Position numbers and translations under genes: made by a program | The notes under the pieces: generated by a model | Database searches by the model: none | What the model was told of the DNA's origin: nothing | Seen by the model: the letters and a program-made list of their open reading frames with translations, nothing else | Part shown: in pieces, positions 7,337-42,976 of the stretch | How the letters are laid out: the number at the start of each line of letters is the position of its first letter | Numbering within the stretch: the first letter of the stretch is position 1 | Source: a virus | Length of the DNA stretch: 43,333 nucleotides | Reading direction: 5' to 3' (one strand) | Virus record (IMG/VR): IMGVR_UViG_3300037493_006298 | Span: 1-43,333 of that record

Positions 7337-7698
7337 ACTCAAAACAAAAAGGTAAATCGGGCGAACTCGAATTATCGCACGAACTGACTCGAATTCTCGG
7401 CATTAAATGCCGGAGAGGTCAACAATATTCCGGGGTTGGCGGTGACGATGTTGTCGGTATTCCAGGTGTTCACATCGAATGCAAGCGCACGCAGAAATTG
7501 AATTTAGCGAAAGCCTTCCAGCAATCTGAAAATGATGCTGATGAAAAAGAAATTCCCGTTGTCTGCCACCGCGCCAACCGCCAGCCCTGGATGATCTCTC
7601 TCAAACTGGATGATCTGGAAGAATTTGTTCGATTAATCGGGAGCATTACGAATGAAACTCAGACCGTATCAAGAAACGGCAATACAGAAAATATATGA
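7333..7698 (+). CDS. Hjc-like PD-(D/E)XK nuclease
   Basis: A 121-residue protein with the restriction-fold signature: Glu11 in KSGELE, Asp38-Asp39 in GVGGDDVVG, and Glu49-x-Lys51 in HIECKR. This layout fits Holliday-junction resolvase-like nucleases of the Hjc type found in phages. It would cut branched DNA arising from recombination and replication before packaging. It begins by ATGA overlap with the exonuclease gene. Its C-terminal 47 bases overlap the helicase gene in another frame. Confidence 0.75.
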   Translation: MNSKQKGKSGELELSHELTRILGIKCRRGQQYSGVGGDDVVGIPGVHIECKRTQKLNLAKAFQQSENDADEKEIPVVCHRANRQPWMISLKLDDLEEFVRLIGSITNETQTVSRNGNTENI

Positions 7699-9196
7699 GT
7701 CATGGAGTTTGTTTGACAAAACTCTCCTGGTTTTTCCCACAGGCACGGGGAAAACCATTGTGTTTTCCCATATCGCAAAGCGGGAGATTGATTCAGGGAA
7801 AAGGGTTTTAATCCTGGCTCACAGGGATGAATTATTACAACAAGCACAGGACAAACTTTTCAGGGCTGTAGGCGTCAATGCGGCAATCGAAAAAGCTGAG
7901 TCCACAGCCCTGGACTCCTTTTTTCCTGTAACGTGCGGAAGCGTTCAAACGCTCATGCGTAAAAAACGTTTAGAACGTTTCCCTCGTGATTTTTATCAGA
8001 CAATCATAGTCGATGAAACCCATCATATCCTCTCACAATCGTATCAAAATATTTTAAATTATTTCTCTAATGGATCCCCCACAAAAGTCTTGGGCGTAAC
8101 TGCAACCCCTGACCGGGGGGACAAGAAAAACCTGGGAAAGTATTTTGATGACCTGGCTTATGAGTACTCGATCAGAGATGCAATTTCGGAGGGATATTTA
8201 TGTCCGATTACAGCGGAAACTATCCCTTTAAAAATAGATATTTCCAATGTTCGGGAAACGGCAGGAGATTACAACGATGCAGATTTAGGAGATTCGATAT
8301 CTCCCTTCCTCTCTCAGATCGCTGAAAACATACCGAGAGACAGAAAGATTTTGGTTTTTCTTCCTCTCATAGACACGTCAAAACATATTAATATTTTGCT
8401 TCAAATGAAGGGTTACAAATCGGAACACCTGGACGGGACATCACAGAACCGGAGGGAGGTTCTCGCTCGTTTCAAATCCGGGGAAACTCAAATCATTTGC
8501 AATTCAATGTTACTCACTGAAGGTTTTGACGAGCCGTCCATTGATTGTATCGTCTGCCTTCGTCCTACTAAAATCAGATCGTTTTTTGCTCAAGTTGTTG
8601 GTCGTGGGACCCGCCCTTTTCCCGGAAAACAGAATCTTTTGATTCTGGATTTCCTCTGGCAAACCGCAACGCATGACCTTTGTCATCCAGCTTCCTTAAT
8701 CGCAGAGAATGAGGAAGTTTCAAAACGCATGACAGAGATTCAAAATGTGGGGGGGTATAAACCGGATTTGATCCAGTTGGAAATCCAAGCAAAATCTTCC
8801 CTGGCTGAAGAACGTGAAAGATCTCTCGCTGAAGAACTGAAAAGACACGAATACAAGCAACGGAAATTTGTTAATCCCCTGGAATTTGCGCTATCCATCC
8901 ATGCGGAGGATCTCCAGACCTATGAACCGCTTTTCAAATGGGAAGCCCATCCCCCCTCAGACAATCAAATAAACCTTTTAGTTAAGTGGGGATTTAATTC
9001 CGATGAAATCCCAAACAAAGGTTTTGCATCGAAATTGATTGATCGCTGTATTTCTCGGAGTAAGCTGAATATGGCTTCTCCAAAGCAAATCAAATGTTTG
9101 AAACGATATGGGATAGACGGAACAGGTTTATCATTTAACCAGGCATCGGAGAATATAGATAAAATCGCTCAAAACGGATGGAGGGTTCCTGAATGA
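7652..9196 (+). CDS. SF2 DEAH/DETH-box helicase
   Basis: A 514-residue helicase. Motif I is PTGTGKT (29-35), motif Ia HRDE (about 57-60), motif II DETH (121-124), motif III TATP (150-153) and motif VI QVVGRGTR (314-321). The second RecA lobe ends near 345. A C-terminal part of about 150 residues includes a conserved-looking segment DNQINLLVKWGF and a similar repeat near the end. It belongs to the Rad25/ResIII-like branch common in phage replication modules. The start overlaps the nuclease gene by 47 bases; the coding frame is unbroken. Confidence 0.88.
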   Translation: MKLRPYQETAIQKIYESWSLFDKTLLVFPTGTGKTIVFSHIAKREIDSGKRVLILAHRDELLQQAQDKLFRAVGVNAAIEKAESTALDSFFPVTCGSVQTLMRKKRLERFPRDFYQTIIVDETHHILSQSYQNILNYFSNGSPTKVLGVTATPDRGDKKNLGKYFDDLAYEYSIRDAISEGYLCPITAETIPLKIDISNVRETAGDYNDADLGDSISPFLSQIAENIPRDRKILVFLPLIDTSKHINILLQMKGYKSEHLDGTSQNRREVLARFKSGETQIICNSMLLTEGFDEPSIDCIVCLRPTKIRSFFAQVVGRGTRPFPGKQNLLILDFLWQTATHDLCHPASLIAENEEVSKRMTEIQNVGGYKPDLIQLEIQAKSSLAEERERSLAEELKRHEYKQRKFVNPLEFALSIHAEDLQTYEPLFKWEAHPPSDNQINLLVKWGFNSDEIPNKGFASKLIDRCISRSKLNMASPKQIKCLKRYGIDGTGLSFNQASENIDKIAQNGWRVPE

Positions 9197-9660
9197 ATAT
9201 TTATAAAGAATTTGTAATGAAAACAAAAGCATTCATTTATTTAACGGGTGTTATCCCTGATAAAGTAAGAATGAGTAGAGATCAAAAAGAAAAATTATTC
9301 AACGATCCTGAATTTCAGGGAGAAAAAGAAAAAAACATAGTGTGTTTTCCATGGGGCGAAAATTCAATTTCCAATAATGTATTTTTGGAAATTGAAACAC
9401 AAGATGAAGAATTGTCTATCGTTCCCCAAAAAATCAATCCTGAAAAGGTAATCGAATCGTATAAAAAATCTCAATCTCTAAAAAAAACAGCCCTTGAATT
9501 TGAAAAATCATATACATGGGTAAAAAGAATTTTGGTAAAATCTGGAATCAAAATCAATTCTCCAGGGGGGGCAAATAACAAAGGCGGACATGAGTATCGT
9601 AAGCTTGTTAAATATTATAGAGTCGGAATGAGAGGGTGGAATAAAATGGAACACACTTAA
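9193..9660 (+). CDS. Hypothetical protein with C-terminal HTH
   Basis: A 155-residue protein that starts by ATGA overlap with the helicase, with GGAGGG upstream. The N-terminal half is beta-rich and unrecognised. Residues about 92-125 (ESYKKSQSLKKTALEFEKSY, then TWVKRILVKSGI) have the pattern of a helix-turn-helix of the transposase/resolvase-like kind. It may bind DNA as a regulator or replication accessory factor; nothing further can be supported. Confidence 0.6.
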   Translation: MNIYKEFVMKTKAFIYLTGVIPDKVRMSRDQKEKLFNDPEFQGEKEKNIVCFPWGENSISNNVFLEIETQDEELSIVPQKINPEKVIESYKKSQSLKKTALEFEKSYTWVKRILVKSGIKINSPGGANNKGGHEYRKLVKYYRVGMRGWNKMEHT

Positions 9661-9701
9661 TTGTTTATCCAGAAGAAAATTGAATCGATGGAGGAAGAAT
9701 C

Positions 9702-10109
9702 ATGAGCGAACGAGAAATTAAATTCTGGCAGGCAGAACGCATGAACGATAACCCACTGACGTGTGAATCAATAGATGAAGCAGTGGGTGAATATGTCGAA
9801 TATTTCAAAGCTCTCGCTGATGGTAAAATTGAAATTATCGGTTATGCGCCGATGGAAGTCAATCCGTATTTATTGGATGATATCCTTGAAAACATTCTTG
9901 AGCGGCTTGACGAAGAATATGGAAACCCGGATAACACCGAGGGAAGAAAACCGACTGAGGAGATGAAACAAGCTGAAGCGGAATTTGTGAAAAAGATCAT
10001 CTCGTTTTACGAACCTTGGATGTGCGAAGAAGTAGAACGCAAAACAATCAATGTCAAGGAATGGATCGAGAAGAATAAACCGGAACGGATGGAGGAAAAA
10101 GGCAAATGA
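9702..10109 (+). CDS. Hypothetical acidic protein
   Basis: A 135-residue, acidic, helix-rich protein (many Glu and Lys, a Trp-containing segment FYEPWMCEEVERKTINVKEW). GGAGGA lies nine bases before the ATG. The end overlaps the next gene by ATGA, so it is part of the replication operon. I do not recognise the family. The EYVEYFKALADGKI and EVNPYLLDDILENI segments look like those of small phage proteins of unknown role. Confidence 0.6.
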   Translation: MSEREIKFWQAERMNDNPLTCESIDEAVGEYVEYFKALADGKIEIIGYAPMEVNPYLLDDILENILERLDEEYGNPDNTEGRKPTEEMKQAEAEFVKKIISFYEPWMCEEVERKTINVKEWIEKNKPERMEEKGK

Positions 10110-10306
10110 TAATCCATGATCGGAAAATAAAACAGAAAGTCGATGTTTCCGAAAAAGAATGTCCCAACCGGAAATGCTATTGGGCGCGCCCTGACCCCGG
10201 CGTTTTTACGCAGGGACAAGGATATCGAAGTCGAACTGTTCCCCTAAAATATTGGATTTGCGGAACTCGTGAAATCCACGGGTGTCCGAGGGAGTTTTGT
10301 AAATGA
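10106..10306 (+). CDS. Small Cys-containing hypothetical protein
   Basis: A 66-residue protein with four cysteines (CPNRKC and then ICG and GCPREFCK), which could coordinate a metal ion. It is coupled at both ends by ATGA overlaps to the genes before and after. Function unknown; its place just before the primase-helicase suggests a replication accessory role. Confidence 0.6.
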   Translation: MIIHDRKIKQKVDVSEKECPNRKCYWARPDPGVFTQGQGYRSRTVPLKYWICGTREIHGCPREFCK

Positions 10307-12339
10307 ATGATTATGAAATAGCTTTACAATGTCTCAAAAAACTTTCTCCCAGGAGAATAGATGAATATGATTCCTGGGTGAAAGTGGGGATGATCCTGAA
10401 ACAAGTCGGGCTCCCCTGTTCGTCCTGGGATTCCTGGTCTAGATCCTCCCAGAAATACAAGCCGGGCGATTGTGAAAACAAATGGCAGTCGTTCAACGGA
10501 AGTTCCCTCGGTGAACTATCCCTTGGATCTCTTATTCAGTGGGTACGAGAAGACGGACAAAACATCGATTACAAAGAAAAGCAGGACGGATATTCCCTCG
10601 ACTGGGATTCGGAGATCGGACCCAAAACACAGATCATCCCCGGGGCTTCGGAGAACTGGCAGACAGACGATTTGATAAAATATCTCAAAACCCTTTTTCA
10701 CGATGATGAAACTGTCAATTATGTGATCGACTCCCACGAGGCGGAAGGGCGTTTTTCCCCTCGAGGAAGGGGCGTAAACAAAAACTGCGGGCAACTCGTA
10801 AATGAGATCGATGCAAACCGGAAAGACATCTCCTTTGCCTTGGGGGATTGGAATCCACAGGCTGGGGCATGGATCAGGATTAATCCCATGTCCGGGGAAG
10901 GATGCCGGAATGCAGACGTAACGGATTACAGGCATGTCCTGGTTGAGTCCGACGAGCTCCCCATTGATGAACAGCTCTCCATGATCCGAACATTAAATTT
11001 GCCTTGCGCTGCTGTTGTTCATTCCGGGGGAAAATCAGTTCATGCAATCGTAAAAATTCAGGCGGGAACATCTATCAATCTGTATAAGGAGCGAGTACAA
11101 TTCCTGTTTTCCGTCCTGGAAAAATACGGATTTAAAATTGATATGCAATGCAAAAATCCAAGCAGGCTCTCACGCATCCCCGGAGTTACCCGAAATGGTA
11201 AAAAACAGTACCTGATTTCCCTCAATGATGGGCTTCCGTCCTGGGAATCCTGGGAGAAGGAAATCCGGGGGGAACTTTATGAATATGACATTATCTCCCC
11301 TTCCCGGATGGAAAACGTAAATGTCGATGATCAATCAGACTCTATCCTGGGAAATCGTTTTTTGTGTAAACAAGGATCCTGGTTGATTGTCGCCCTCTCC
11401 GGGATTGGTAAAAGCGTTGCATGTATTCAGGGCGCTTGCTGCTTCGCTGTTGGACGTGATTTTTTCGGTATCGTTCCTGCAAAAAAACTGAAACAGATCA
11501 TTATCCAGGCAGAGAACAATTTTCTCGATCTCGTTGAACCTTTCCAGTCGATAGTTGCAAAAATGGAGTTGTCCCCCCAGGAAAAAGAAGACCTGAATAA
11601 AAATCTTTTGATACTATCCGAGGACTCTCAAGCCGGACCCCGGTTCGCCCCCTTCCTGGAGCATGTTTGTAAAAAATACAGTCCAGATATTATCTGGATC
11701 GATCCACTTATGGCATATATCGGAGGTGATATTTCCCGGCAGGAGGTTTGTTCCTCATTCCTGCGTAATCAAATTAATCCCATTATACACAAGTATAATA
11801 TCGGATTGATTGTACTGCATCACACAGGCAAACCACCCAAGAATTTGGAAAAGCAACTCCAGGGGCATGAGCTGGCATACCTGGGAATTGGATCGAGCGA
11901 GCTTACAAACTGGGCAAGGGCGGTATCTACAATTACCCAGGATGCCTCCGGAGACGGAGTCTATACATTCGAGCATTCCAAGCGGGAGGGGCGTTCTGGG
12001 GCAAAGAAACAAACGTTTTTAAAGCATTCCGAAAGTGGGATATACTGGGAGGAAACGGATAACCCAGGAGAACCTAAAGAAACCCGGGGACGCCCTCAAA
12101 AATACGCTGATATGGGCTTTGAATATATGCCTCCCAAATCACACAGCCGGGATCATGCACAAAGTGAGCTATTGCAGTTCATCCAGGAGAATATTTTCCT
12201 CCAAACTAAAGAGGAAATTGACATCAATAAAGCGGATGGAATCCGCAGTTGTCTGATGAAAACAAACACAATAATTTATAACAAAAGTATAAAATTATGG
12301 ACTGGAAAATACTACATAGGCGAACAAACGCAGATTTAG
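10303..12339 (+). CDS. Primase-helicase (PriCT-2, AEP primase, RepA-like ATPase)
   Basis: A 678-residue fused replication protein. Residues 1-82 match PriCT-2 (SPRRIDEYDSWVKVGMILK). Residues about 130-310 look like an archaeo-eukaryotic primase core: acidic pair ESD at 215-217, HSGGKSVH at 240-247, and KNPSRLSRIPG at about 284-294. Residues 355-570 are a RepA/AAA_25 hexameric helicase domain: Walker A SGIGKS (366-371), Walker B IIWIDP (463-468), and the VLHHTGK motif (504-510). It would prime and unwind DNA at the phage origin. The candidate origin lies immediately after its stop. Start by ATGA overlap. Confidence 0.88.
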   Translation: MNDYEIALQCLKKLSPRRIDEYDSWVKVGMILKQVGLPCSSWDSWSRSSQKYKPGDCENKWQSFNGSSLGELSLGSLIQWVREDGQNIDYKEKQDGYSLDWDSEIGPKTQIIPGASENWQTDDLIKYLKTLFHDDETVNYVIDSHEAEGRFSPRGRGVNKNCGQLVNEIDANRKDISFALGDWNPQAGAWIRINPMSGEGCRNADVTDYRHVLVESDELPIDEQLSMIRTLNLPCAAVVHSGGKSVHAIVKIQAGTSINLYKERVQFLFSVLEKYGFKIDMQCKNPSRLSRIPGVTRNGKKQYLISLNDGLPSWESWEKEIRGELYEYDIISPSRMENVNVDDQSDSILGNRFLCKQGSWLIVALSGIGKSVACIQGACCFAVGRDFFGIVPAKKLKQIIIQAENNFLDLVEPFQSIVAKMELSPQEKEDLNKNLLILSEDSQAGPRFAPFLEHVCKKYSPDIIWIDPLMAYIGGDISRQEVCSSFLRNQINPIIHKYNIGLIVLHHTGKPPKNLEKQLQGHELAYLGIGSSELTNWARAVSTITQDASGDGVYTFEHSKREGRSGAKKQTFLKHSESGIYWEETDNPGEPKETRGRPQKYADMGFEYMPPKSHSRDHAQSELLQFIQENIFLQTKEEIDINKADGIRSCLMKTNTIIYNKSIKLWTGKYYIGEQTQI

Positions 12340-23005: not shown

Positions 23006-23974
23006 ATGTACCCTATTACGACTCTAAAAACCTATAGACCGGAAATTGGCGGATCAATGTCTGAGATTGATCTTGCTCTTTCCCGAACTGGTTTTGTGGG
23101 TTTAAAAATTGCACGCCCCCGCCCTATGGGGAAAAAAAGCGGCACTCTTGGGATAATCCCGATTGAATCCAGGTTGATGAATCCCGACACGAAGCGGAAC
23201 GATCGGGGAGAATATAACCGTGTGACCTGGAGCTTTGAAGACGGTTCTTTCGATTGCCAGGAGGATGGCATCGAGGTTCCCGTTGATCGTTCTGCCGCGG
23301 CTGCGTTTGTTGATTTCTTTGACGCCCTTTTGGAATCGTCCGAAGTCTCTAGGGACATTGTCCTGCGGAAGTTGGAAATCACAATCGCCACGAAGCTCAT
23401 GGATATTGCGCAAATCGCCAACGCCAACGCAGGTGTGAAATGGACTGATACCACAGGATCAAATCCAATTTCGGATATTAACACCGGGAAAAAAGCAATC
23501 AGGAATCAGCGTGGTGTAGTCCCTAACTGTATGTGCGTTCCTTATGAGAATTTTCTGCTTCTCCAGGAAAATTCAAAAGTTTTGGATCGCATTCACAGTT
23601 ATGGCGCGGGTCAGTCCATCAAATCAGCGGATATTTCTGCGGACGTTCTCGCGCGGGTTTTCGATGTGGATTACTTCTATATCGCGGATGGGATGTACAA
23701 TACAAAGTCCAGAAACAAAACCGCCGTCCTGGCTGACATTTGGGACAAGACGAAAGTTCTTCTTTGCCGCATTCCTCCCGAAGGCGATGAACGAGCAACA
23801 ACACCCTGCCTCGCTCGAACGCTTCACTGGGATGAAGCCGGTGGAGACATCGGAGGGCAGGTTGAAGTTTATCAATCCCCGCAGACAAATGGCGAGGTGA
23901 CTCGGTCCATTATGTTCACTGATGTGAAATATATGGATTTATCCCTGGGATATATCATCAAAGAAGTCGTTTAA
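23006..23974 (+). CDS. Major capsid protein (lambda gpE-like)
   Basis: A 322-residue protein of the lambda gpE type. N-terminal GGSMSEIDLALSRTGFVGLK, RDRGEYNRVTW-like region, GIEVPVDRSAAAAFVDFFDA helix (about 90-110), and a C-terminal MFTDVKYMDLSLGYIIKEVV end. It forms the T-number shell with the HK97 fold. It has a TTAAGGAG Shine-Dalgarno, and its position after the decoration gene matches lambda-like order. Confidence 0.85.
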   Translation: MYPITTLKTYRPEIGGSMSEIDLALSRTGFVGLKIARPRPMGKKSGTLGIIPIESRLMNPDTKRNDRGEYNRVTWSFEDGSFDCQEDGIEVPVDRSAAAAFVDFFDALLESSEVSRDIVLRKLEITIATKLMDIAQIANANAGVKWTDTTGSNPISDINTGKKAIRNQRGVVPNCMCVPYENFLLLQENSKVLDRIHSYGAGQSIKSADISADVLARVFDVDYFYIADGMYNTKSRNKTAVLADIWDKTKVLLCRIPPEGDERATTPCLARTLHWDEAGGDIGGQVEVYQSPQTNGEVTRSIMFTDVKYMDLSLGYIIKEVV

Positions 23975-23985
23975 GGAGACAAATT

Positions 23986-24666
23986 ATGAAAAGAAAATCG
24001 ACTTGGCTTTTACTGGCGTTCCTGGGGATTGTCATTATCGCATTTGCATATTCCCCGAATGTTGCTCGGGTTCCTATGGATCGATATTGCGAATTTTTCA
24101 AAGAGGTCGTTTTCAGGACTCCTGGTGGAACCGATTCGCCTTCGCTGATTTTCCTGGATGGGTCCGGGGAATATGTTGAGATCAAGAAATTAAATTCTGG
24201 AAATTTGACCGTAACTACAAGCGATTCTCTCCAGTTGATTACTGGGGGAATTGTTACGCCCAAAATTAACGGACATGATGAAATACGGATTGAGGAATTT
24301 AATTACTATGATCTGGATATTGCATCAAGCCAATCTCTAGAAGCGTGGGGGATTGATCCTTCAGCGAATGTAGGTGGGATATTGAAATATCATAAAACCC
24401 CCCTCGGTGGATCATTGATCGGATTAACCGTTTACATCGATGACACTATTTCAGCGGGAAATATGACAGTAGATATAACGTTTGATGGTTCTCCAAGCGG
24501 ATTCCAGGCGGTGTTAAATTCGGGAATTCAAAGCGTTGCCACGATGAACGCAAATACCGAGTATCCGATTGATGCGGGGCTTGTTGGCGTTCAGGTTTCA
24601 ACGTCTGTTGATTGGGCTGCCGGAAGGACCCCCAATGGAATGATTGGGGTTTTGTGGAGTTACTAA
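23986..24666 (+). CDS. Signal-peptide-bearing beta-rich protein
   Basis: A 226-residue protein. Residues 1-22 are a hydrophobic signal or anchor (KRKSTWLLLAFLGIVIIAFAY). The rest is beta-rich and Gly/Ser/Thr-rich (GNLTVTTSDSLQLITGG), with a C-terminal domain of the tail-fibre or lectin type. An export signal is unexpected in a virion gene next to the major capsid. It could be a secreted or membrane-displayed factor. The ribosome site is AAGGAG. Confidence 0.6.
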   Translation: MKRKSTWLLLAFLGIVIIAFAYSPNVARVPMDRYCEFFKEVVFRTPGGTDSPSLIFLDGSGEYVEIKKLNSGNLTVTTSDSLQLITGGIVTPKINGHDEIRIEEFNYYDLDIASSQSLEAWGIDPSANVGGILKYHKTPLGGSLIGLTVYIDDTISAGNMTVDITFDGSPSGFQAVLNSGIQSVATMNANTEYPIDAGLVGVQVSTSVDWAAGRTPNGMIGVLWSY

Positions 24667-24921
24667 ATGGTTTCCCGAGCAAAAGAAATTTTCGATCTAT
24701 TAGGCTCACCTGTACTTGAGGAACGCCATGTCAAAACACTTCAAATCGCCCGTCCTGTTTTACAAACAGACGGGGCGGGCGGTTTTTCTGAAATCGTTGG
24801 AGAGACAAGCGATTTAAATTGTGATCCGGTTTTATTCGATCAGGACGGAGAAATGATCCTATCTGTAGATGTAGATGAAGACATTCTAGTTGGGGATCTG
24901 ATTTTTATTGATTACAATTAA
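24667..24921 (+). CDS. Small hypothetical structural-position protein
   Basis: An 84-residue acidic, beta-rich protein that begins directly after the previous stop. The sequence (VSRAKEIFDLLGSPVLEERH, then VDEDILVGDLIFIDYN) is not recognised. Its place in the block after the capsid suggests a minor head or connector protein, but this is not proven. Confidence 0.5.
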   Translation: MVSRAKEIFDLLGSPVLEERHVKTLQIARPVLQTDGAGGFSEIVGETSDLNCDPVLFDQDGEMILSVDVDEDILVGDLIFIDYN

Positions 24922-24932
24922 GGAGCAAAAAT

Positions 24933-25295
24933 ATGACTCTCGAAACGATTGCCAGGAATGCAGCTGTTGCAGCAGTCGGAACCCTGTGTAATGGTGGAGA
25001 TATACAATTCCAAACAGCTGCTGGAAATGAGGTTGCAACATGTACGTTTGGAGCAACGGCGTTCGGGGCTCCATCAACCGGAACTATTACAGCCGCAGCA
25101 ATGGGGGCAGATACCAGCGCAGCGGGGGGAACGATCGGAAAAGCCGTCCTTCGTAAAGCGGATGATTCGGTCGTTGCAACGTTGACCGTGACAGTTGTTG
25201 GCGGGGGCGGTGATCTGGAAGTGACTTCTCTGGTTGTTGCAGCTGGTGAAAAAGTTGAAATGTCACCATTGCCCACTTTAACACAGCCTGCGTAA
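24933..25295 (+). CDS. Ala/Gly/Thr-rich beta-rich phage protein
   Basis: A 120-residue protein with low-complexity Ala, Gly and Thr segments (FGATAFGAPSTGTITAA) and a regular beta pattern at the end (VVATLTVTVVGGGGDLEV). It resembles small phage structural proteins that occur with fibre-type genes. The ribosome site is AAGGAG. Exact role unknown. Confidence 0.55.
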   Translation: MTLETIARNAAVAAVGTLCNGGDIQFQTAAGNEVATCTFGATAFGAPSTGTITAAAMGADTSAAGGTIGKAVLRKADDSVVATLTVTVVGGGGDLEVTSLVVAAGEKVEMSPLPTLTQPA

Positions 25296-25314
25296 TTCCC
25301 CCAGGGGGTGAATG

Positions 25315-25857
25315 ATGTCGAATCGTTTTTTAACAGCGGTCGTAAACGGCGGTTTGGTTTTTACAGAATCCGGCGACTTGTATTTTGAAGCCGAAATTGA
25401 CGGCGCGAATATTCCCGAAGCAGAACGAGTTGATGTAACTCGGTTAGTTGCGTTGGACAGTGACGGAGATCCTCAAAAAGTTCCTCTTCCAAATGAAATC
25501 AAAACCATTTCTGTTTTTATAGCAGGTGAACCAGCCCCAACGGGGGCTGGAAGTTATTATTTCAAATTACCGATGTCTTTATTTGGGGTTTCCGTCACTG
25601 TCCTGGGAATTTCTGTCAATGCGTCTATCTGGACTGGTTTATCTGGTTCGACTACTGTCAGGGTGGGGGACGCTGTTTACGGATCGGGGAATACAATTGA
25701 CGTTTCCCTGACAAATACTGGAGCGGATACAGACAGAAATAATTCCGCAACTGGCTCTTTTGTTGTTGCCACAGCCACGGAAAATCTTTATTTACATATC
25801 CATCTTGCTGGCGGTCACGCAAATATAAACGTGACTATATTTTTCAAACCTGTTTAA
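25315..25857 (+). CDS. Beta-rich structural-type protein
   Basis: A 180-residue protein (181 if started at 25312). CAGGGGG upstream supports either ATG. The sequence is Gly/Ser/Thr-rich with regular strands (ASIWTGLSGSTTVRVGDAVY, GSFVVATATENLYLHIHLAG), which fits a jelly-roll of the fibre or decoration type. Nothing catalytic is seen. It lies in the block of fibre-like genes. Confidence 0.55.
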   Translation: MSNRFLTAVVNGGLVFTESGDLYFEAEIDGANIPEAERVDVTRLVALDSDGDPQKVPLPNEIKTISVFIAGEPAPTGAGSYYFKLPMSLFGVSVTVLGISVNASIWTGLSGSTTVRVGDAVYGSGNTIDVSLTNTGADTDRNNSATGSFVVATATENLYLHIHLAGGHANINVTIFFKPV

Positions 25858-25868
25858 GGAGGCAAATC

Positions 25869-28007
25869 ATGAAAAGGTTATTTTTACTAGTCTTGATTTT
25901 GGGGCTGATTGCGCCCGGGTTTGCTCAGGTGAGTCCGGTCAAGGCTTCCAGTTTGAAACTGGATACAAACGGAGATGGGACTTTTTCTACTTTCCAGGAA
26001 ACTGATATTGATCAGAGGATTAATGTAAATTATGATGATGCCGTAACAAGTGAGATGCTTGTTTATACTGGGACGGGGGTATCTTGGGTATGTCGTGGGC
26101 TTGCAGATTTAGGGATAGCTCCTCCGGGGAATACTATTATCGTGGCAAAAAGTGGCGGGAATTACAACACGATTGCGGAGGGCGTTGCGGCGGCGGTGAG
26201 TGGGGATGTCGTGTTGATTTATCCGGGGACATATACTGTTACAAATTTAAATATTAATAAAGCAATTGCTCTTGTTGGAATTGATCGTGATAATTGTATT
26301 ATCCAACAGGATAATGTTGTAACCGGAACTGTAACTTATACGAGTGGTGTTGTAAACTGTACAGTGTCCGGTATAACATTGGAAAATCTAACAATACAGA
26401 ATATTGGAAGTGATGATGGAACTTACGCAACACCCGCAGTAATAACATCAAGCGGGATTTGCTGGATTAGAAATTGCAGGATTCGGGGGAATGGTGGGCG
26501 TGATATATTTGACATATTGGGGACTTCAACAACTTATTGTTATGGTGTTGAGGTAGAACAATATGCGCTGGGATCGGCTGCGAGCCATGCCATTTGGGTG
26601 GACAATTCTGCTAATTTATATTTTGAGCATAGTAAGACAATTGTTTCCGGTTCTGGAAGCGGAGCGCAAGTAAACACTACGGGCGATTGTTATTTCAGAT
26701 TTTCCAGATTAAGCGGCGCGAGTTATGCCCTGGACATAACAAATTGTGATATTTTGGAACTCCGACATTGTACAACGAACGCAACTTCATTTTTGTCAAC
26801 GGAAAATTATAATTCGCTTGATGATGGTTTTTCAGATTTTTTAGACATTTCAGTAGATGATATTTTGGGAAATTATATAACCTGTACGGGATCGGCAATA
26901 TTCGGCGGTGAGGCGGATTCTGCAACGATGGAGTGGGATGTTGCAACAAATAAAATGATTTTAACAGCTTCCGGTTATGATCCTGTAAACCTCTACTCGA
27001 CTGAGGAAGAAACGCCAAAACTTAAAACGGATAATATTTTTTCTGCAAATTCCTTTTTAACCGGTTCAACGGAGCGGATCAGCGCGGCTGGAGTTGGGAC
27101 TCTGACCCAGGCAAATGTGGATAATGTCCAGGTTGATGGGAATACAATATCGGCAACCAACTCAGGGGGAGATATTACGCTGACTCCGAACGGGACCGGA
27201 GATGTCAAAGCTTCGGCTGGAGATGTGCAAATAACGACTGACGCGGGGCAAGTGGTTATTGGAGCCTCCGATACGGTCAATTTGTATCGATCTGCTGCGA
27301 ATACCTTGAAGACGGATGATGCGTTTATTGGTGGAAGCACGGGGACTTTTGCGTCATATTTAACCGTGCAGAGCGGGAGCGGGATATTTCTATCAAATAC
27401 AGCAGCTAAACTGCAATGGTATTCCGGCGCAAGCTACGATGTGGAATTATCGAGGAGTGCTGCGGACACGCTTTATACCCCGGATACGTTTTCGGCTGGG
27501 GCGGGGCTGAATTGCAATGCCACGATCTGGAGGAATTTTGCAGCGGCGGTGGATGCGGCGGGGAATGTAGCCGGTTATGGAGTGGCAAATGAGTTGGGAA
27601 ATCCATATTCTACCACCGGCTGGATGGAGAATGCTATTAATGCACCAACCTTTATAACAACCAGCGAGGACGGGGCGTGCGTGTATTTTCCCGTCCCATA
27701 TTTGGCAGGGTCTGTCATTACGCAAATTCGTGTTCGCTGGCAAGCGATTGGAAACGCGGACGGAGTGCTGTTGCGGTTGGTAAAGCGGGTGGAAAGTGGA
27801 ACAGACACAGCATGGACATTGGTTGGGGCACAACAAACATATACGGATCTTGGGACACCCTATCCCGTGACGCTGTCAACCTATGATATTGCAGATACAA
27901 CGTTAGATGCTGATACCTTCTATGCTATTGAGATTAAATCGCAAATGATGGCAACGGGGGTTAATTTATATTCCGTTGGTATCGAAACATCTAAAAGAGT
28001 TTATTAA
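25869..28007 (+). CDS. Beta-helix fibre/tailspike-like protein with signal peptide
   Basis: A 712-residue protein. Residues 1-19 are a clear signal peptide (FLLVLILGLIAPGFAQ). Residues about 90-330 carry the pectin-lyase-like parallel beta-helix, starting with a typical first turn (GNYNTIAEGVAAAVSGDVVL, IYPGTYTVTNL). Residues about 375-560 are fibre-shaft-like repeats (GGDITLTPNGTGDVKA). The last 120 residues resemble a jelly-roll. Such proteins bind or cut surface sugars. The signal peptide suggests secretion rather than direct virion assembly. The Shine-Dalgarno is AAGGAGG. Confidence 0.7.
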   Translation: MKRLFLLVLILGLIAPGFAQVSPVKASSLKLDTNGDGTFSTFQETDIDQRINVNYDDAVTSEMLVYTGTGVSWVCRGLADLGIAPPGNTIIVAKSGGNYNTIAEGVAAAVSGDVVLIYPGTYTVTNLNINKAIALVGIDRDNCIIQQDNVVTGTVTYTSGVVNCTVSGITLENLTIQNIGSDDGTYATPAVITSSGICWIRNCRIRGNGGRDIFDILGTSTTYCYGVEVEQYALGSAASHAIWVDNSANLYFEHSKTIVSGSGSGAQVNTTGDCYFRFSRLSGASYALDITNCDILELRHCTTNATSFLSTENYNSLDDGFSDFLDISVDDILGNYITCTGSAIFGGEADSATMEWDVATNKMILTASGYDPVNLYSTEEETPKLKTDNIFSANSFLTGSTERISAAGVGTLTQANVDNVQVDGNTISATNSGGDITLTPNGTGDVKASAGDVQITTDAGQVVIGASDTVNLYRSAANTLKTDDAFIGGSTGTFASYLTVQSGSGIFLSNTAAKLQWYSGASYDVELSRSAADTLYTPDTFSAGAGLNCNATIWRNFAAAVDAAGNVAGYGVANELGNPYSTTGWMENAINAPTFITTSEDGACVYFPVPYLAGSVITQIRVRWQAIGNADGVLLRLVKRVESGTDTAWTLVGAQQTYTDLGTPYPVTLSTYDIADTTLDADTFYAIEIKSQMMATGVNLYSVGIETSKRVY

Positions 28008-29002
28008 TGTCTGGGCATGAAATAACATATCTTGGGTTTTCTTTGGATGCAACAGAACGTCTTTTGTCTGATTCAATCGATTTTTTAATATCGTCTGAAT
28101 ATTATAGAGTCGATTTAGATTTGTTTACAGAGTCGGCTTTGTTTTCCGGGAACGGGATTATTACTCGGATAGGGACGGGATCTCCTACAACTCAGAAAAT
28201 GCTTTTCGATGGAACGGGAATTAAAACCGTTTTATGTACGGGAAGTTTTTCAACCGAAAAAACAGAAGCTTCTGGCTTTGGAATTATAACCGGATTTGTT
28301 TCTGCGATCGGGGATTTTTCAACTGAAAAAATGACAGCCTCTGGCGGAGCTCAAATAACAGCAGAACAGGGCGTTATTACTGCAACAGGAGAATTGATTT
28401 GTGAAATCATGGCAGCCTCCGGCGGGGCTAAACTCTACAGGGTTTATTATGCTACAGGTTCACCAATAGCGTCAAAAGCCTTGTTTTCGGGTTCTGCGAT
28501 CAAAACCCTTATCAGTACTGGGGCGATTGAATCAAATGCCACCACGCTTGCAGGAACCGGGATAAAAACTATCCTGGGAACAGGAGGAATAGAAACACAA
28601 TCCCCCACAATTACAGGGGGGGGAATTCGTTCCATTCTGGGAATGGGAAATCCTGAAACGGAATCATGCCAGGGATCGGGCGGGGGAATCATATATCAAA
28701 GAATTTGGGCAACTGGGGAACTTTCAACCGGGGAAATGAGTTTCCTTTCCGGGGCTGTCAAAACAGTTTTGTGCATGGTTGCGGATGCAATGATGGAATC
28801 TGTTTCAGCATCAGGAGGAAGTAAAAAAACCGTTTACGGATCTCTCAATGAAATTAATCCTACTATGGAGTTTGACGCCGGCGGGCGGAATCCTGCGGCG
28901 TTGACAACGCAAACATTCAGAATAAGAGACATTGAAAAAGTAGAAGGAAAGCCATATAAACTTTTGTATCTGGAGCCGGTAAGGAGACCGATAAACAAAT
29001 GA
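28007..29002 (+). CDS. Tandem-repeat protein, about ten 21-26-residue repeats
   Basis: A 331-residue protein, TAATG-coupled to the beta-helix gene. It is built of about ten repeats with the pattern of a strand, then TG, then ET or STE, a short variable part, and SGGA or TGGGI (for example GTGGIETQSPTITGGGIRSI and the units around it). The C-terminal 45 residues are unrelated. Repeats of this kind usually form elongated solenoid or fibre shafts. Possible fibre partner of the beta-helix protein; no family recognised. Confidence 0.6.
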   Translation: MSGHEITYLGFSLDATERLLSDSIDFLISSEYYRVDLDLFTESALFSGNGIITRIGTGSPTTQKMLFDGTGIKTVLCTGSFSTEKTEASGFGIITGFVSAIGDFSTEKMTASGGAQITAEQGVITATGELICEIMAASGGAKLYRVYYATGSPIASKALFSGSAIKTLISTGAIESNATTLAGTGIKTILGTGGIETQSPTITGGGIRSILGMGNPETESCQGSGGGIIYQRIWATGELSTGEMSFLSGAVKTVLCMVADAMMESVSASGGSKKTVYGSLNEINPTMEFDAGGRNPAALTTQTFRIRDIEKVEGKPYKLLYLEPVRRPINK

Positions 29003-29433
29003 TTATGGTTCATAAAATCGTTCTTAGATATTTCCCTAAAGAAGTTTTGAAAGCAGCTCAGCAAGCTTCCTTAACTCCGCTTATGGAAGCGGGGTATTTG
29101 GTACAGCGTGAGGCGAAAAAATCTATGAGGAAATTTACCGGAAAATCGTCTAAACCCGGGCATCCTCCAAAATCACGAACAGGAAGATTAAAAGCAGGGA
29201 TTCATACAGCTCGAGAAAAAGACGGGCGGGTTATAGTGGGTCCTGTTGGTTCTGCTTGGTATGGGAAAATTTTGGAACACGGCGGGAGAAATGTTTCCCC
29301 CCGGCCATTTATGAAACCAGCGGTTGAAAAAGTCAAAGAAAAATTCCCTTACCTTTGGCATGGGAAAAGTTTGGCATCAACACCCGAAGGACGAAAGCTC
29401 AACGCATGGAGGCTTTCTCGAAGTGGATCTTAA
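28999..29433 (+). CDS. HK97 gp10-like tail completion protein
   Basis: A 144-residue protein with the HK97 gp10-like pattern: basic central region with SKPGHPPKSRTGRLKAGIHT (about 50-69), VIVGPVGSAWYGKILEHGG (about 79-97) and RPFMKPAVEK (about 101-110). This family sits at the head-tail interface and completes the tail or neck. It starts by ATGA overlap with the repeat protein. Its last 11 bases overlap the next gene. Confidence 0.8.
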   Translation: MIMVHKIVLRYFPKEVLKAAQQASLTPLMEAGYLVQREAKKSMRKFTGKSSKPGHPPKSRTGRLKAGIHTAREKDGRVIVGPVGSAWYGKILEHGGRNVSPRPFMKPAVEKVKEKFPYLWHGKSLASTPEGRKLNAWRLSRSGS

Positions 29434-38585: not shown

Positions 38586-38960
38586 ATGGAAATTGCATTG
38601 ATTCTCGAAGTCCTGAAATATTCAGCGACTATTATTGCCGGTGGGATTGCGATTTACAAAGCGTTCAAGGCAAAAAAATACAAAGACGCTTTCAACGTGT
38701 CGGAGAAAACCCTGGAGAGCGTTGTCGCTGCACTTGAACTTTTACCGTTTGATAATGAGACCATGACAACTATCAAACGGCAGGTTCAAAAAATTGCCCT
38801 GGCAACCGGAAGCGAAAAAGAAAAACTTGCAGAAGTTGTCGAATTTGTTTCTAATTTTCTTTCCCAAAATGGAATTACATCCGCGGATCCTGAGGCAACT
38901 ATCCGGGCAGCGGCGGCAATTATTGAAGCCAGAAAAATCAGAAATGGAGGGGCGAAATGA
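38586..38960 (+). CDS. Holin-like protein
   Basis: A 124-residue protein with an N-terminal membrane helix (residues about 5-25, LEVLKYSATIIAGGIAIYKA), a basic stretch, and a cytoplasmic helical domain (KTLESVVAALELLPFDNETM). AAGGAGG lies ten bases before the ATG. A role as a holin or pore-associated protein is inferred from position between the XhlA-like and lipoprotein genes. A single helix is unusual, so it is not certain. Confidence 0.45.
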   Translation: MEIALILEVLKYSATIIAGGIAIYKAFKAKKYKDAFNVSEKTLESVVAALELLPFDNETMTTIKRQVQKIALATGSEKEKLAEVVEFVSNFLSQNGITSADPEATIRAAAAIIEARKIRNGGAK

Positions 38961-39166
38961 AAAGGTTCTTACTCATTGCATTGCTGTTTTTTTTGGTGGG
39001 CTGCGCAACCCAGAGATTCACGACTGAGACCGTAATTTCCGGGGACCCGCTTCCGGATTTGGCGATTGAGTGGCCCCCGGGAACGCAGAAAGAGGAAATC
39101 TATACCACTGTAATTGATGGTCGGGTGATAAGCGTGGCGCCGCTCAGGGCAACAGAAATGCCTTAA
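38957..39166 (+). CDS. Rz1-like outer-membrane lipoprotein
   Basis: A 69-residue protein with a textbook lipobox (FLLIALLFFLVGC, Cys16) and a Pro-containing mature part (IEWPPGTQKEEI). Small lipoproteins at the end of a phage lysis cassette are usually outer-membrane spanin subunits (Rz1 type). No separate Rz partner is seen; the XhlA-like or holin-like protein might pair with it. It starts by ATGA overlap. Confidence 0.6.
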   Translation: MKRFLLIALLFFLVGCATQRFTTETVISGDPLPDLAIEWPPGTQKEEIYTTVIDGRVISVAPLRATEMP

Positions 39167-40232: not shown

Positions 40233-41048
40233 TTAATTTATGGAAGGAACCTGTTCCAGGAAGAAGTTGGTTACTTCCCGATTGTCTCCATCAGCCACCA
40301 AGGAATTTTGGTCTGTACAAACCTTTGTAAATCCGTTGTACAGATCCCAGTAGGTGGGATCACCTTTCATTTCACTTCTGGTAACATTCAAAACATCTCC
40401 TATCCTGGAACCGGGGAATCCGTGTCCTGTTACCAGGTCGGAACAGATTTGGAGCATTCTGCCGGATCCCAGGGATTGTTGGAACCGTTGGAACCTGGGG
40501 AGAATGGAATGAATGTTCTGTGTCATTCCCTGGATTTGATCGCAAGCTTCATCAAGTTCCTTTTGAAATTCCCCATTGCCGTTGATATGTCTGAATCGGA
40601 AAAATCCGAAATGCTGATCAACAATCATTCCATTGGAGCAAACCAGGCGTTGAAGGTTGAATGCAAGTCCGAAGGTGGTTGTTTTGTCGTAGGAATTATG
40701 AAGGTCAATTGCTAGGGCAATGAGGTCACCGGGGGCAACTTCAGCCTGAATGGAAGGGATGATCCAACGGCGGGAGAAGGTTTTCCCCGTCCATATCGAT
40801 CTTCCTTCTTCAAAATTCAAGCCTGTGCGAGTAATGACATCAAGGGCGATGTCGTTGGCTTGCTTGTTCGGAATCAGGAGGTAATCACGGGAAACGGGGA
40901 CGAGTTTTTGAATGTATTCATCTTGTTCTGTTTCCGTAGAAATTACGGGAAGTGAAAAATTGCTTTCAGGGATTTGCTCCAGTTTGATCCCGGAATCCCA
41001 GGGAAAGATTTTCGTGTCCACCCTTTTGTTTACGATTGTTTGAGTCAT
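40233..41048 (-). CDS. DUF932 family protein
   Basis: A 271-residue protein of the DUF932 (phage/plasmid-like TIGR03299) family: VPGDLIALAIDL-like VAPGDLIALAIDLHNSYDKT (about 128-147), GLAFNLQRLVCSNGMIV (about 151-167), and HINGNGEFQKELDEAC in the second half. The biochemical role is unknown; these genes occur in phages, plasmids and islands, often on their own transcript. Here it heads the leftward cluster, has an AAAGGAG site, and lies next to the right att region. It is about the usual length. Confidence 0.8.
   Translation of the reverse strand: MTQTIVNKRVDTKIFPWDSGIKLEQIPESNFSLPVISTETEQDEYIQKLVPVSRDYLLIPNKQANDIALDVITRTGLNFEEGRSIWTGKTFSRRWIIPSIQAEVAPGDLIALAIDLHNSYDKTTTFGLAFNLQRLVCSNGMIVDQHFGFFRFRHINGNGEFQKELDEACDQIQGMTQNIHSILPRFQRFQQSLGSGRMLQICSDLVTGHGFPGSRIGDVLNVTRSEMKGDPTYWDLYNGFTKVCTDQNSLVADGDNREVTNFFLEQVPSIN

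Positions 41049-41370: not shown

Positions 41371-41378
<8 letters not shown>
41049..41378. other. AT-rich non-coding right end of prophage
   Basis: This stretch of 330 bases has no credible gene. It probably contains the promoter for the leftward DUF932 cluster, and it carries the arm-type repeats at 41234-41256. It is the phage arm flanking the right att core. Confidence 0.7.
41235..41256 (+). repeat. Arm-type repeat, right end (two perfect 11-mers)
   Basis: Two perfect tandem copies of TTGTATGAATT (41235-41245 and 41246-41256), in the same orientation as the copy and a half at 2869-2885. It lies about 115 bp inside the right att core. Pairs of 10-11-bp repeats on both arms are what tyrosine integrases bind through their N-terminal domain. 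Binding itself is inferred. Confidence 0.65.
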
Positions 41379-41454
<76 letters not shown>

Positions 41455-41844: not shown

Positions 41845-42468
41845 TCACATATCAAATGTCGGATAAAGCCTCTTTAGTTTTATACGAGCCTTTTCCGTCG
41901 TGAACTGCCAGTTTATCCTTGCATTCAGATTGTTGCGATGCGTTTGCCATTCTTTCACTTCTGCTTTCACTTCAGAGATTTGATCGATGCGCCTTCTCAA
42001 GCATTGATGAACAAGTACATTTAACTCGATCTCTGCCATATTGAGCCAACTGCCATGTTTGGGCGTGTAAACAAATTCAAAACGATCCCAGAGTTTTTTT
42101 GCTTCCTCCGGCGTAAAGGCATCATACAATGATCCTGGTTTATGTGTGTTCAAATTATCCATGACCAGAGTGATCTTTTTCACCTTCTTGTAGTGATCCG
42201 CGATTTCTTTGATGAACTGCGCCCAATCCAATTTGGTTTTTTTTTCTGTTACCTTGACAAGTCGATCTCCCGCCAATGGTTCGCTCGCCATGAATATATT
42301 ACATATTCCACATCGTTGGTATTCATAGTCATGGCGTTCGATTCTCCCGGGCGCAGCAGCAATAGGGATATGCTTTTCCTTGATTAATTGCTTTGGCGAT
42401 TCATCCATACAAACAATAGGAAAATCCTTGTTATAAGGACGTTTATATACATCAAGAACGTTTTCCAT
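41845..42468 (-). CDS. IS630 transposase, catalytic part
   Basis: A 207-residue frame with the DDE centre of IS630 transposases: first Asp in VCMDES (about residues 19-24), second in LVMDNLNTH (about 101-109), and Glu in SWLNMAEIEL (about 140-149). It excises and joins the IS ends at TA sites. Homology starts upstream of the ATG (frame reads GWVIPSPQNSDFVAC before it), so it is the C-terminal part of a split protein. Confidence 0.88.
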   Translation of the reverse strand: MENVLDVYKRPYNKDFPIVCMDESPKQLIKEKHIPIAAAPGRIERHDYEYQRCGICNIFMASEPLAGDRLVKVTEKKTKLDWAQFIKEIADHYKKVKKITLVMDNLNTHKPGSLYDAFTPEEAKKLWDRFEFVYTPKHGSWLNMAEIELNVLVHQCLRRRIDQISEVKAEVKEWQTHRNNLNARINWQFTTEKARIKLKRLYPTFDM

Positions 42469-42484
42469 ACAGGCGACAAAGTCA

Positions 42485-42976
42485 CTATTTTGAGGACTTG
42501 GAATGACCCACCCCCGCCTTTTCCAGGGTTTGATTTCGTTTTTTTAAAACTCGGCGAACAGTTTCATAAGAAATGCTGTCAATGTAATTCAGTTCAACAA
42601 CCTTGTCCGCGAGCAATCTCAAAGACCACCGCGCAAAACCTTTCGGCGGCTTGCTGCAACTTAATGCCACGAGGTGCGCCTCGAAGTCTCCATCGGCTTT
42701 CTTTTCATAAACCCTTTCCCCTTTGCGTCCATTTAAAACCATCTCCAAGCCTTCCTCAATAAATCTTTTTTTTATTCGGTCAATCTTCCGCATACTGACC
42801 TTCAAGATGGACGAGATCCCCTCATTTTTTGTTTTTTTATCCTGGAATTCTCCTTCATCACAATTGAGCATAACCAATGCGTTGATAACTTTTTGTGATT
42901 TATGATTTCCCTTCCTTGTAATCTCCCTGAGGTATTCTCTTTCGGCGCTTTCCAATGTCACCTTGTATTTTTTCAT
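42485..42976 (-). CDS. IS630 transposase, DNA-binding part
   Basis: A 163-residue frame with the N-terminal helix-turn-helix region of IS630 transposases (GISSILKVSMRKIDRIKKRF) and the typical KPPKGFARWSLRLLADKVVE segment. It leaves the family frame at a run of seven A (about 42541-42547), after which the catalytic part continues in the +1 (or -2) phase. A single-base change or slippage at the run would restore one protein. Confidence 0.88.
   Translation of the reverse strand: MKKYKVTLESAEREYLREITRKGNHKSQKVINALVMLNCDEGEFQDKKTKNEGISSILKVSMRKIDRIKKRFIEEGLEMVLNGRKGERVYEKKADGDFEAHLVALSCSKPPKGFARWSLRLLADKVVELNYIDSISYETVRRVLKKRNQTLEKAGVGHSKSSK

Follow-up and report, generated by a model that had tools for sequence, protein, structure and literature searches.

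Why genes for fibre-like proteins with predicted export signals lie between the capsid and tail genes of a phage was the question raised by the stretch of DNA analysed here, a viral record of 43,333 bases (IMG/VR record IMGVR_UViG_3300037493_006298, hereafter the window) within which a prophage covers about 38.6 kb. Its host is very probably Candidatus Sumerlaeota, an uncultured bacterium. Six tightly spaced forward open reading frames (ORFs), p1 to p6, are flanked by the genes for the major capsid protein and for tail completion, as a preliminary description had stated. Our answer centres on p5, which is tentatively read as a Sec-exported fibre homologue that would act on the envelope of the infected cell, and on the recurrence in Sumerlaeota phages of such proteins, in which a fibre body carries a predicted cleavable signal peptide in place of its usual N-terminus.

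Architecture and predicted export signal of p5

The protein p5 is a mosaic of a signal peptide, a LKLDTNGDGTFSTFQET segment, a β-helix, fibre repeats and a C-terminal β domain (Table 1). The best match of the helix in the PDB was pectinesterase 1gq8 (p5 residues 88-182, E 9e-4); it spans only residues 8-109 of that chain and leaves the catalytic Gln/Asp/Asp/Arg part outside the alignment, and we make no claim of enzyme activity. Residues 412-451 are 62% identical over 40 residues to the 'tail fiber' of the Methylophilales phages Melnitz, and the fibre repeats also match many IMG/VR viruses. The matches to 1gq8 and to the Melnitz fibre bear out the earlier claim of a β-helix with fibre-like repeats. 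A structure model of p5 predicted from a single sequence was too poor to be used (predicted local distance difference test, pLDDT, 42). Homology to described tail fibres is present in local segments only, linking the p5 repeat to Melnitz and the relatives of p5 to tail-fibre families of the PHROG database. The N-terminal part of the homologous virion fibres is absent: cultured homologues of the fibre in locus L193, one of the related loci described below, match only its residues 72-197. Because the signal peptide replaces the N-terminal part of the cultured homologues, p5 was classed as a fibre homologue and not as a tail fibre.

Signal peptides were called throughout with a scoring script of our own. 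The predicted signal of p1, MKRKSTWLLLAFLGIVIIAFA, would be cleaved before Y and that of p5, MKRLFLLVLILGLIAPGFA, before Q, and the two genes have Shine-Dalgarno matches of 6 and 7 nt, respectively. In neither gene did an ATG downstream of the signal show comparable ribosome-binding support. By this predictor, p1, p5 and relatives exhibit a basic n-region, a hydrophobic core and an A-x-A-like site without a lipobox, and no signal peptide was predicted for p2, p3, p4 and p6. The two signal peptides first noted at 23986 and 25869 were thus recovered, each behind a strong ribosome-binding site. The view of the block as a set of exported proteins held for p1 and p5, which look exported, and was not supported for the four proteins without a signal.

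Such signals were rare in the background. Among 948 scored ORFs, from loci that are mostly terminase relatives, few late-module proteins were convincing, namely p1, p5, the product of a fibre-like gene from a different Sumerlaeota phage and a lipoprotein of the window (38957). Across nine Sumerlaeota or window loci, 13 of 151 ORFs scored positive; six of these were the fibres themselves, and the rest amounted to 7/145, p1 included.

Signal-bearing fibres in other Sumerlaeota phages

Signal-bearing fibre-like genes were found in the window and in seven further Sumerlaeota phage loci (L093, L192, L193, L194, L196, L247 and L238), each with a ribosome-binding site (Shine-Dalgarno matches of 4-7 nt). 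In an eighth locus, L235, the S74 fibre has a signal only if translation begins at a weakly supported, and therefore uncertain, start. The S74 fibre of L242, which starts near a contig end, was left out of the count, and the tape-measure contigs of genomes G040 and G031, which stop short of the fibre genes, were uninformative. The loci were reached by several routes. A search with the p4 domain led to L093 (first reached via the capsid protein), L192, L193 and L194, fibre similarity to L196, a tape-measure search to L227/L247 and the S74 domain to L238. The tape-measure search, blind to fibres, also reached a signal-bearing locus. In 5/5 loci with a p4-type gene, the window included, the gene directly after it encodes a signal-bearing protein of fibre or β-helix type. 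Conservation of the signal had been chosen beforehand as one point on which the proposal could fail; the signal recurs on fibre-like proteins of other phages, and this check does not refute the proposal.

The phages concerned are unlike one another. L193 resembles siphophages (tape measure PF10145), Baseplate_J is present in L194, and PHROGs label the fibre-like proteins of L193 (E 2.6e-15), L194 (5e-5) and L196 (1.4e-10) as tail or tail fibre. The closest relative of p5 is found in L192, where signal, LSLDSNGDGHYEDFTET and helix start align with p5 from residue 2 (E 2e-8); the rest of that helix lies in another frame, possibly owing to an assembly error or a real frameshift. The helices of p5 and L247 align with E 3e-10. 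L247, located in the genome nearest to the window's host, repeats the p5 layout with two helices (Pfam Pectinesterase, E 4e-26), and its fibre gene overlaps the tail-tip gene by 14 nt. Several members of the class carry a DxDxDG-type segment behind the signal; motifs of this kind are frequent in the calcium loops of secreted proteins. Elsewhere the signal-bearing fibre genes stand mostly at the tail-fibre position (L193, L194, L247), and in the window they follow the capsid gene. This position is not unique: L238 likewise has its signal-bearing fibre gene as the first one called after a capsid gene (phrog_10, E 3e-26). The 6.4-kb contig of L238 (1452-6378) encodes an AAA-type protein, an HK97-type capsid protein and the signal-bearing S74 fibre but no tail genes, and is perhaps a satellite or a remnant.

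Two control sets of fibres served as a comparison. Only 1/77 IMG/VR fibre ORFs that share the p5 repeats had a signal peptide (L107), as did 0/10 cultured-phage fibres homologous to p5 or the L193 fibre, all with ordinary N-termini. The tail fibres of Puniceispirillum phage HMO-2011, Sinorhizobium phage phiM6 and the Melnitz phages have fibre segments in common with the p5 class, the L193 fibre being 60% identical to that of HMO-2011 over 83 residues; unlike the p5 class, they have ordinary N-termini without a signal peptide. A one-sided Fisher test of 8/9 against 1/87 gave p ~6e-10; in reading this value it should be kept in mind that part of the loci were picked via p4 or S74, that the records lack independence and that we used a predictor of our own. 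In the phage of unknown host represented by L107, the 1088-aa signal-bearing fibre (7340-10606) has a fibre-like neighbour with a lipoprotein signal (10752-11288), the sole such case among the 77 fibres.

Searches of IMG/VR with the capsid, portal and p5 sequences gave no matches, homologues of p1-p6 were absent from 80 loci found there via terminase alignment, and a scan of the same database with the C-terminus of the L196 fibre returned no relatives. The S74 fibre chaperone domain, present in the L238 and L235 fibres, occurs in 14/40 Sumerlaeota genomes with up to eight proteins in one of them (G021), many with signal peptides; exported fibres fit a Sumerlaeota host because its phylum encodes many exported S74 proteins. 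The secreted host proteins (L231-L246) share the signal peptide with the p5 class and the S74 domain with L238 and L235. They differ in a TYQGxL-type start region and in lying apparently outside prophages, and p5 has no S74 domain. An apparent location outside prophages was noted for the wider set L230-L246.

Possible roles of the putatively exported fibres

The accepted view is that tailed phages put the parts of their virions together in the cytoplasm and that export signals are not to be expected on phage binding proteins. The loci offer predicted signals preceded by ribosome-binding sites, homology to fibres, repeated occurrence in phages of unlike build and the pairing of a p4-type gene with a fibre gene, and from these we infer the actual export, trimming, trimer formation, target and benefit of p5. 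The protein would be made along with the late genes, moved across the inner membrane by Sec and trimmed by signal peptidase I, with folding taking place outside the cytoplasm. As a free receptor-binding fibre, mature p5 could then attach to a glycan or receptor on the surface of the infected cell, and the bound fibre would limit superinfection or the trapping of progeny on debris. We lean towards this action of p5 on the host envelope as the most plausible role, and hold it tentatively. Several points weigh against it. Sec alone leaves p5 in the periplasm of a two-membrane cell, short of the surface, and fibre genes sit in structural modules, which would fit a virion role equally well. The signals were called by a single predictor of our own, the locus count is no random sample because several loci were reached through p4 or S74, and most of the related contigs are short pieces of metagenome-assembled genomes (MAGs).

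Export could instead serve the virion itself, if the fibres were folded in the periplasm and attached to finished particles at lysis, here at the neck, as true virion adhesins arriving by an unusual route. For this Sec alone would be enough; signal-bearing fibre genes stand at the tail-fibre position in L193, L194 and L247, two fibres carry the S74 chaperone, and 936 lactococcal phages likewise carry a pectinesterase-like helix in their neck passage structure (PMC6669499). However, the N-terminal region of the cultured homologues is absent with the signal in its place, and p4 or other signal-less proteins could provide virion binding. This route ranks second and appears possible but rather doubtful. 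The same doubt applies to its wider form, a virion part of Sumerlaeota phages assembled outside the cytoplasm from Sec-exported adhesion fibres that mature in the periplasm and are attached at lysis; such assembly of tailed-phage fibres was not described in the literature searched. Ordinary neck or tail fibres built in the cytoplasm, with a hydrophobic N-terminus that anchors them in the particle or is removed in maturation, would agree with the location in the head-tail module, the fibre homology, the weak virion match of p3 and the existence of neck fibres with such helices (PMC6669499). We consider them unlikely, given that the N-termini differ from those of homologous fibres in having a basic n-region, a hydrophobic core and a cleavage site with small residues, and that an efficient signal would compete with assembly.

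Expression from the prophage as lysogenic-conversion proteins unrelated to the virion, like lambda Lom, has a precedent in the exported proteins known among lambda tail genes (PMC12309495). In the window the genes are packed in the late module and the proteins are built like fibres; promoter-like sites (30 vs 31.3 expected, sigma-70 consensus only) and terminator-like sites (22 vs 17.2 expected) in the module were not above chance. The expression in lysogens proposed in the preliminary description thus found no support, and a conversion role is very unlikely. Least probable of all is an artefact, whether from misplaced starts, chimeric contigs or N-termini that are hydrophobic by chance. The MAG contigs and our own predictor leave some room for it, but ribosome-binding sites lie directly at the starts, independent contigs repeat the pattern, and signal and helix of p5 and L192 align.

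Two known systems resemble the proposed envelope-acting fibre in part. The neck passage structure (collar/whisker) of 936 lactococcal siphophages carries binding modules at the neck, and group D of these structures gives the same pectinesterase match, 1gq8 (PMC6669499). Of its features, which also include a conserved N-terminal domain of about 180 residues, p5, whose neck location is putative, shows the gene position between head and tail and the β-helix module. The 936 study makes no mention of signal peptides (PMC6669499), and the likeness to p5 is one of gene position and structural match. Lambda Lom has a signal peptide and a gene within or behind the tail genes (PMC12309495), as does p5, but is an outer-membrane β-barrel and not a β-helix fibre. 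A 2018 survey of the target proteins of phage diversity-generating retroelements found no signal peptides (PMC6199706). In the open-access literature searched, outside which most subscription journals lie, neither signal peptides as a class feature of tail fibres nor Sumerlaeota prophage fibres were described. A recurrent class of signal-bearing fibres in unlike phages of one phylum would represent either free receptor-binding fibres sent out of the cell or a virion part made outside the cytoplasm, and either outcome would change the reading of fibre genes in environmental phages.

The other block genes and the prophage

Probably p1 is a second exported fibre-like protein. It had no homologue in the 40 Sumerlaeota genomes searched or in cultured phages, and hhalign gave no link between p1 and the p4 domain. 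The other proteins p3, p4 and p6 have the look of components of the virion or neck. Homologues of p4 occur in L093 (E 2e-11), L192, L193 and L194, and a scan of IMG/VR with its domain found no relatives. An AlphaFold2 model from five sequences gave the p4 jelly-roll with pLDDT mostly 72-94 from residue 81 on. Its weak fold matches, among them a phage baseplate structure, the lambda gpJ fibre and carbohydrate-binding modules, have template modelling scores of 0.2-0.45 and therefore indicate a fold class only. The p4 protein may be a virion-borne binding partner. The tandem repeat reported earlier is present in the p6 protein, with a spacing of 21 residues, and is not seen in the DNA.

The block had also been suggested to be inserted as a unit, for which weak support was obtained. 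In L017, L003 and L074 nothing but a short connector gene directly follows the capsid gene; in L002 two small genes intervene. Judged by eye, p2 looks like the beginning of a connector of this kind and the final 29 residues of p6 like its end. This hints that p2 and the p6 tail might once have formed a single head-tail connector into which the block was inserted as a cassette. The p6 tail ranked 32nd of 1409 ORF tails for connector likeness, nine of the higher-ranked being true connectors. Joined to p2 it scored only 2.7 bits, matched by 0/500 shuffles but by 21/1494 foreign tails. As a connector front p2 alone gave no signal, with 298/1494 foreign heads equally good; family searches returned no match for p2, nor did PHROGs for the joined sequence.

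Table 1 Features of the six-gene block and of the surrounding late module in the window
Feature	Position	Strand	Remarks
Terminase	17035		Late module
Lambda-type portal	19748		Late module
S49 protease	21264		Late module
Cement-like protein	22598		Late module; match below cut-off
Major capsid protein	23006..23974	+	Left border of block; phrog_1005, E 9.3e-36
p1, 226 aa	23986..24666	+	Signal peptide, then fibre-like β-rich protein; Shine-Dalgarno 6 nt; own signal score 8.2
p1 signal peptide	23986..24048	+	21 residues, predicted (own predictor)
p2, 84 aa	24667..24921	+	No signal; perhaps front part of head-tail connector (weak)
p3, 120 aa	24933..25295	+	No signal; weak match to phrog_3758 virion structural protein, E 0.005
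p4, 181 aa	25312..25857	+	No signal; C-terminal jelly-roll (~25492-25842)
p5, 712 aa	25869..28007	+	Signal-bearing β-helix fibre
p5 signal peptide	25869..25925	+	19 residues, predicted (own predictor)
p5 segment behind signal	25953..26003	+	LKLDTNGDGTFSTFQET, DxNxDG loop, common to relatives (alignment)
p5 pectinesterase-like β-helix	26130..26564	+	Approximate limits
p5 tail-fibre repeat	27102..27221	+	Residues 412-451
p5 C-terminal β domain	27618..27989	+	Low-confidence model
p6, 331 aa	28007..29002	+	No signal; 21-residue repeats
p6 last 29 residues	28913..28999	+	Resemble head-tail connector C-terminus (hint only)
Tail-completion (HK97 gp10-like) protein	28999..29433	+	Right border of block; phrog_5, E 1.6e-12
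Short gene	29423		Late module, after tail completion
Tail tube	29853		Late module
Probable tape measure	30786		No family match; tail-tip genes next

The prophage is bounded by 56-bp direct repeats (2775-2830 and 41371-41426), the right copy lying inside a tRNA-Gly gene. Its host was taken to be Candidatus Sumerlaeota because the left flanking gene (2-2746, minus strand) has a full-length counterpart, 54% identical, in one Sumerlaeota genome (G013), and the nearest named relative of the terminase comes from a Candidatus Sumerlaeota MAG (53% over a fragment). A remnant of a related terminase (L089) lies in the Sumerlaeota genome G001 beside transposase-like and β-helix ORFs. Near the right end of the prophage, a holin-like gene precedes one for a small lipoprotein similar to an outer spanin (38586-39166), and sequences like this pair occur within one ORF of L195 (16870-17487). 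A DUF932 protein is encoded inside the right end (40233-41048, minus strand), and to the right of the prophage two minus-strand ORFs (41845-42976) resemble, by appearance, an IS630-type transposase in two frames.

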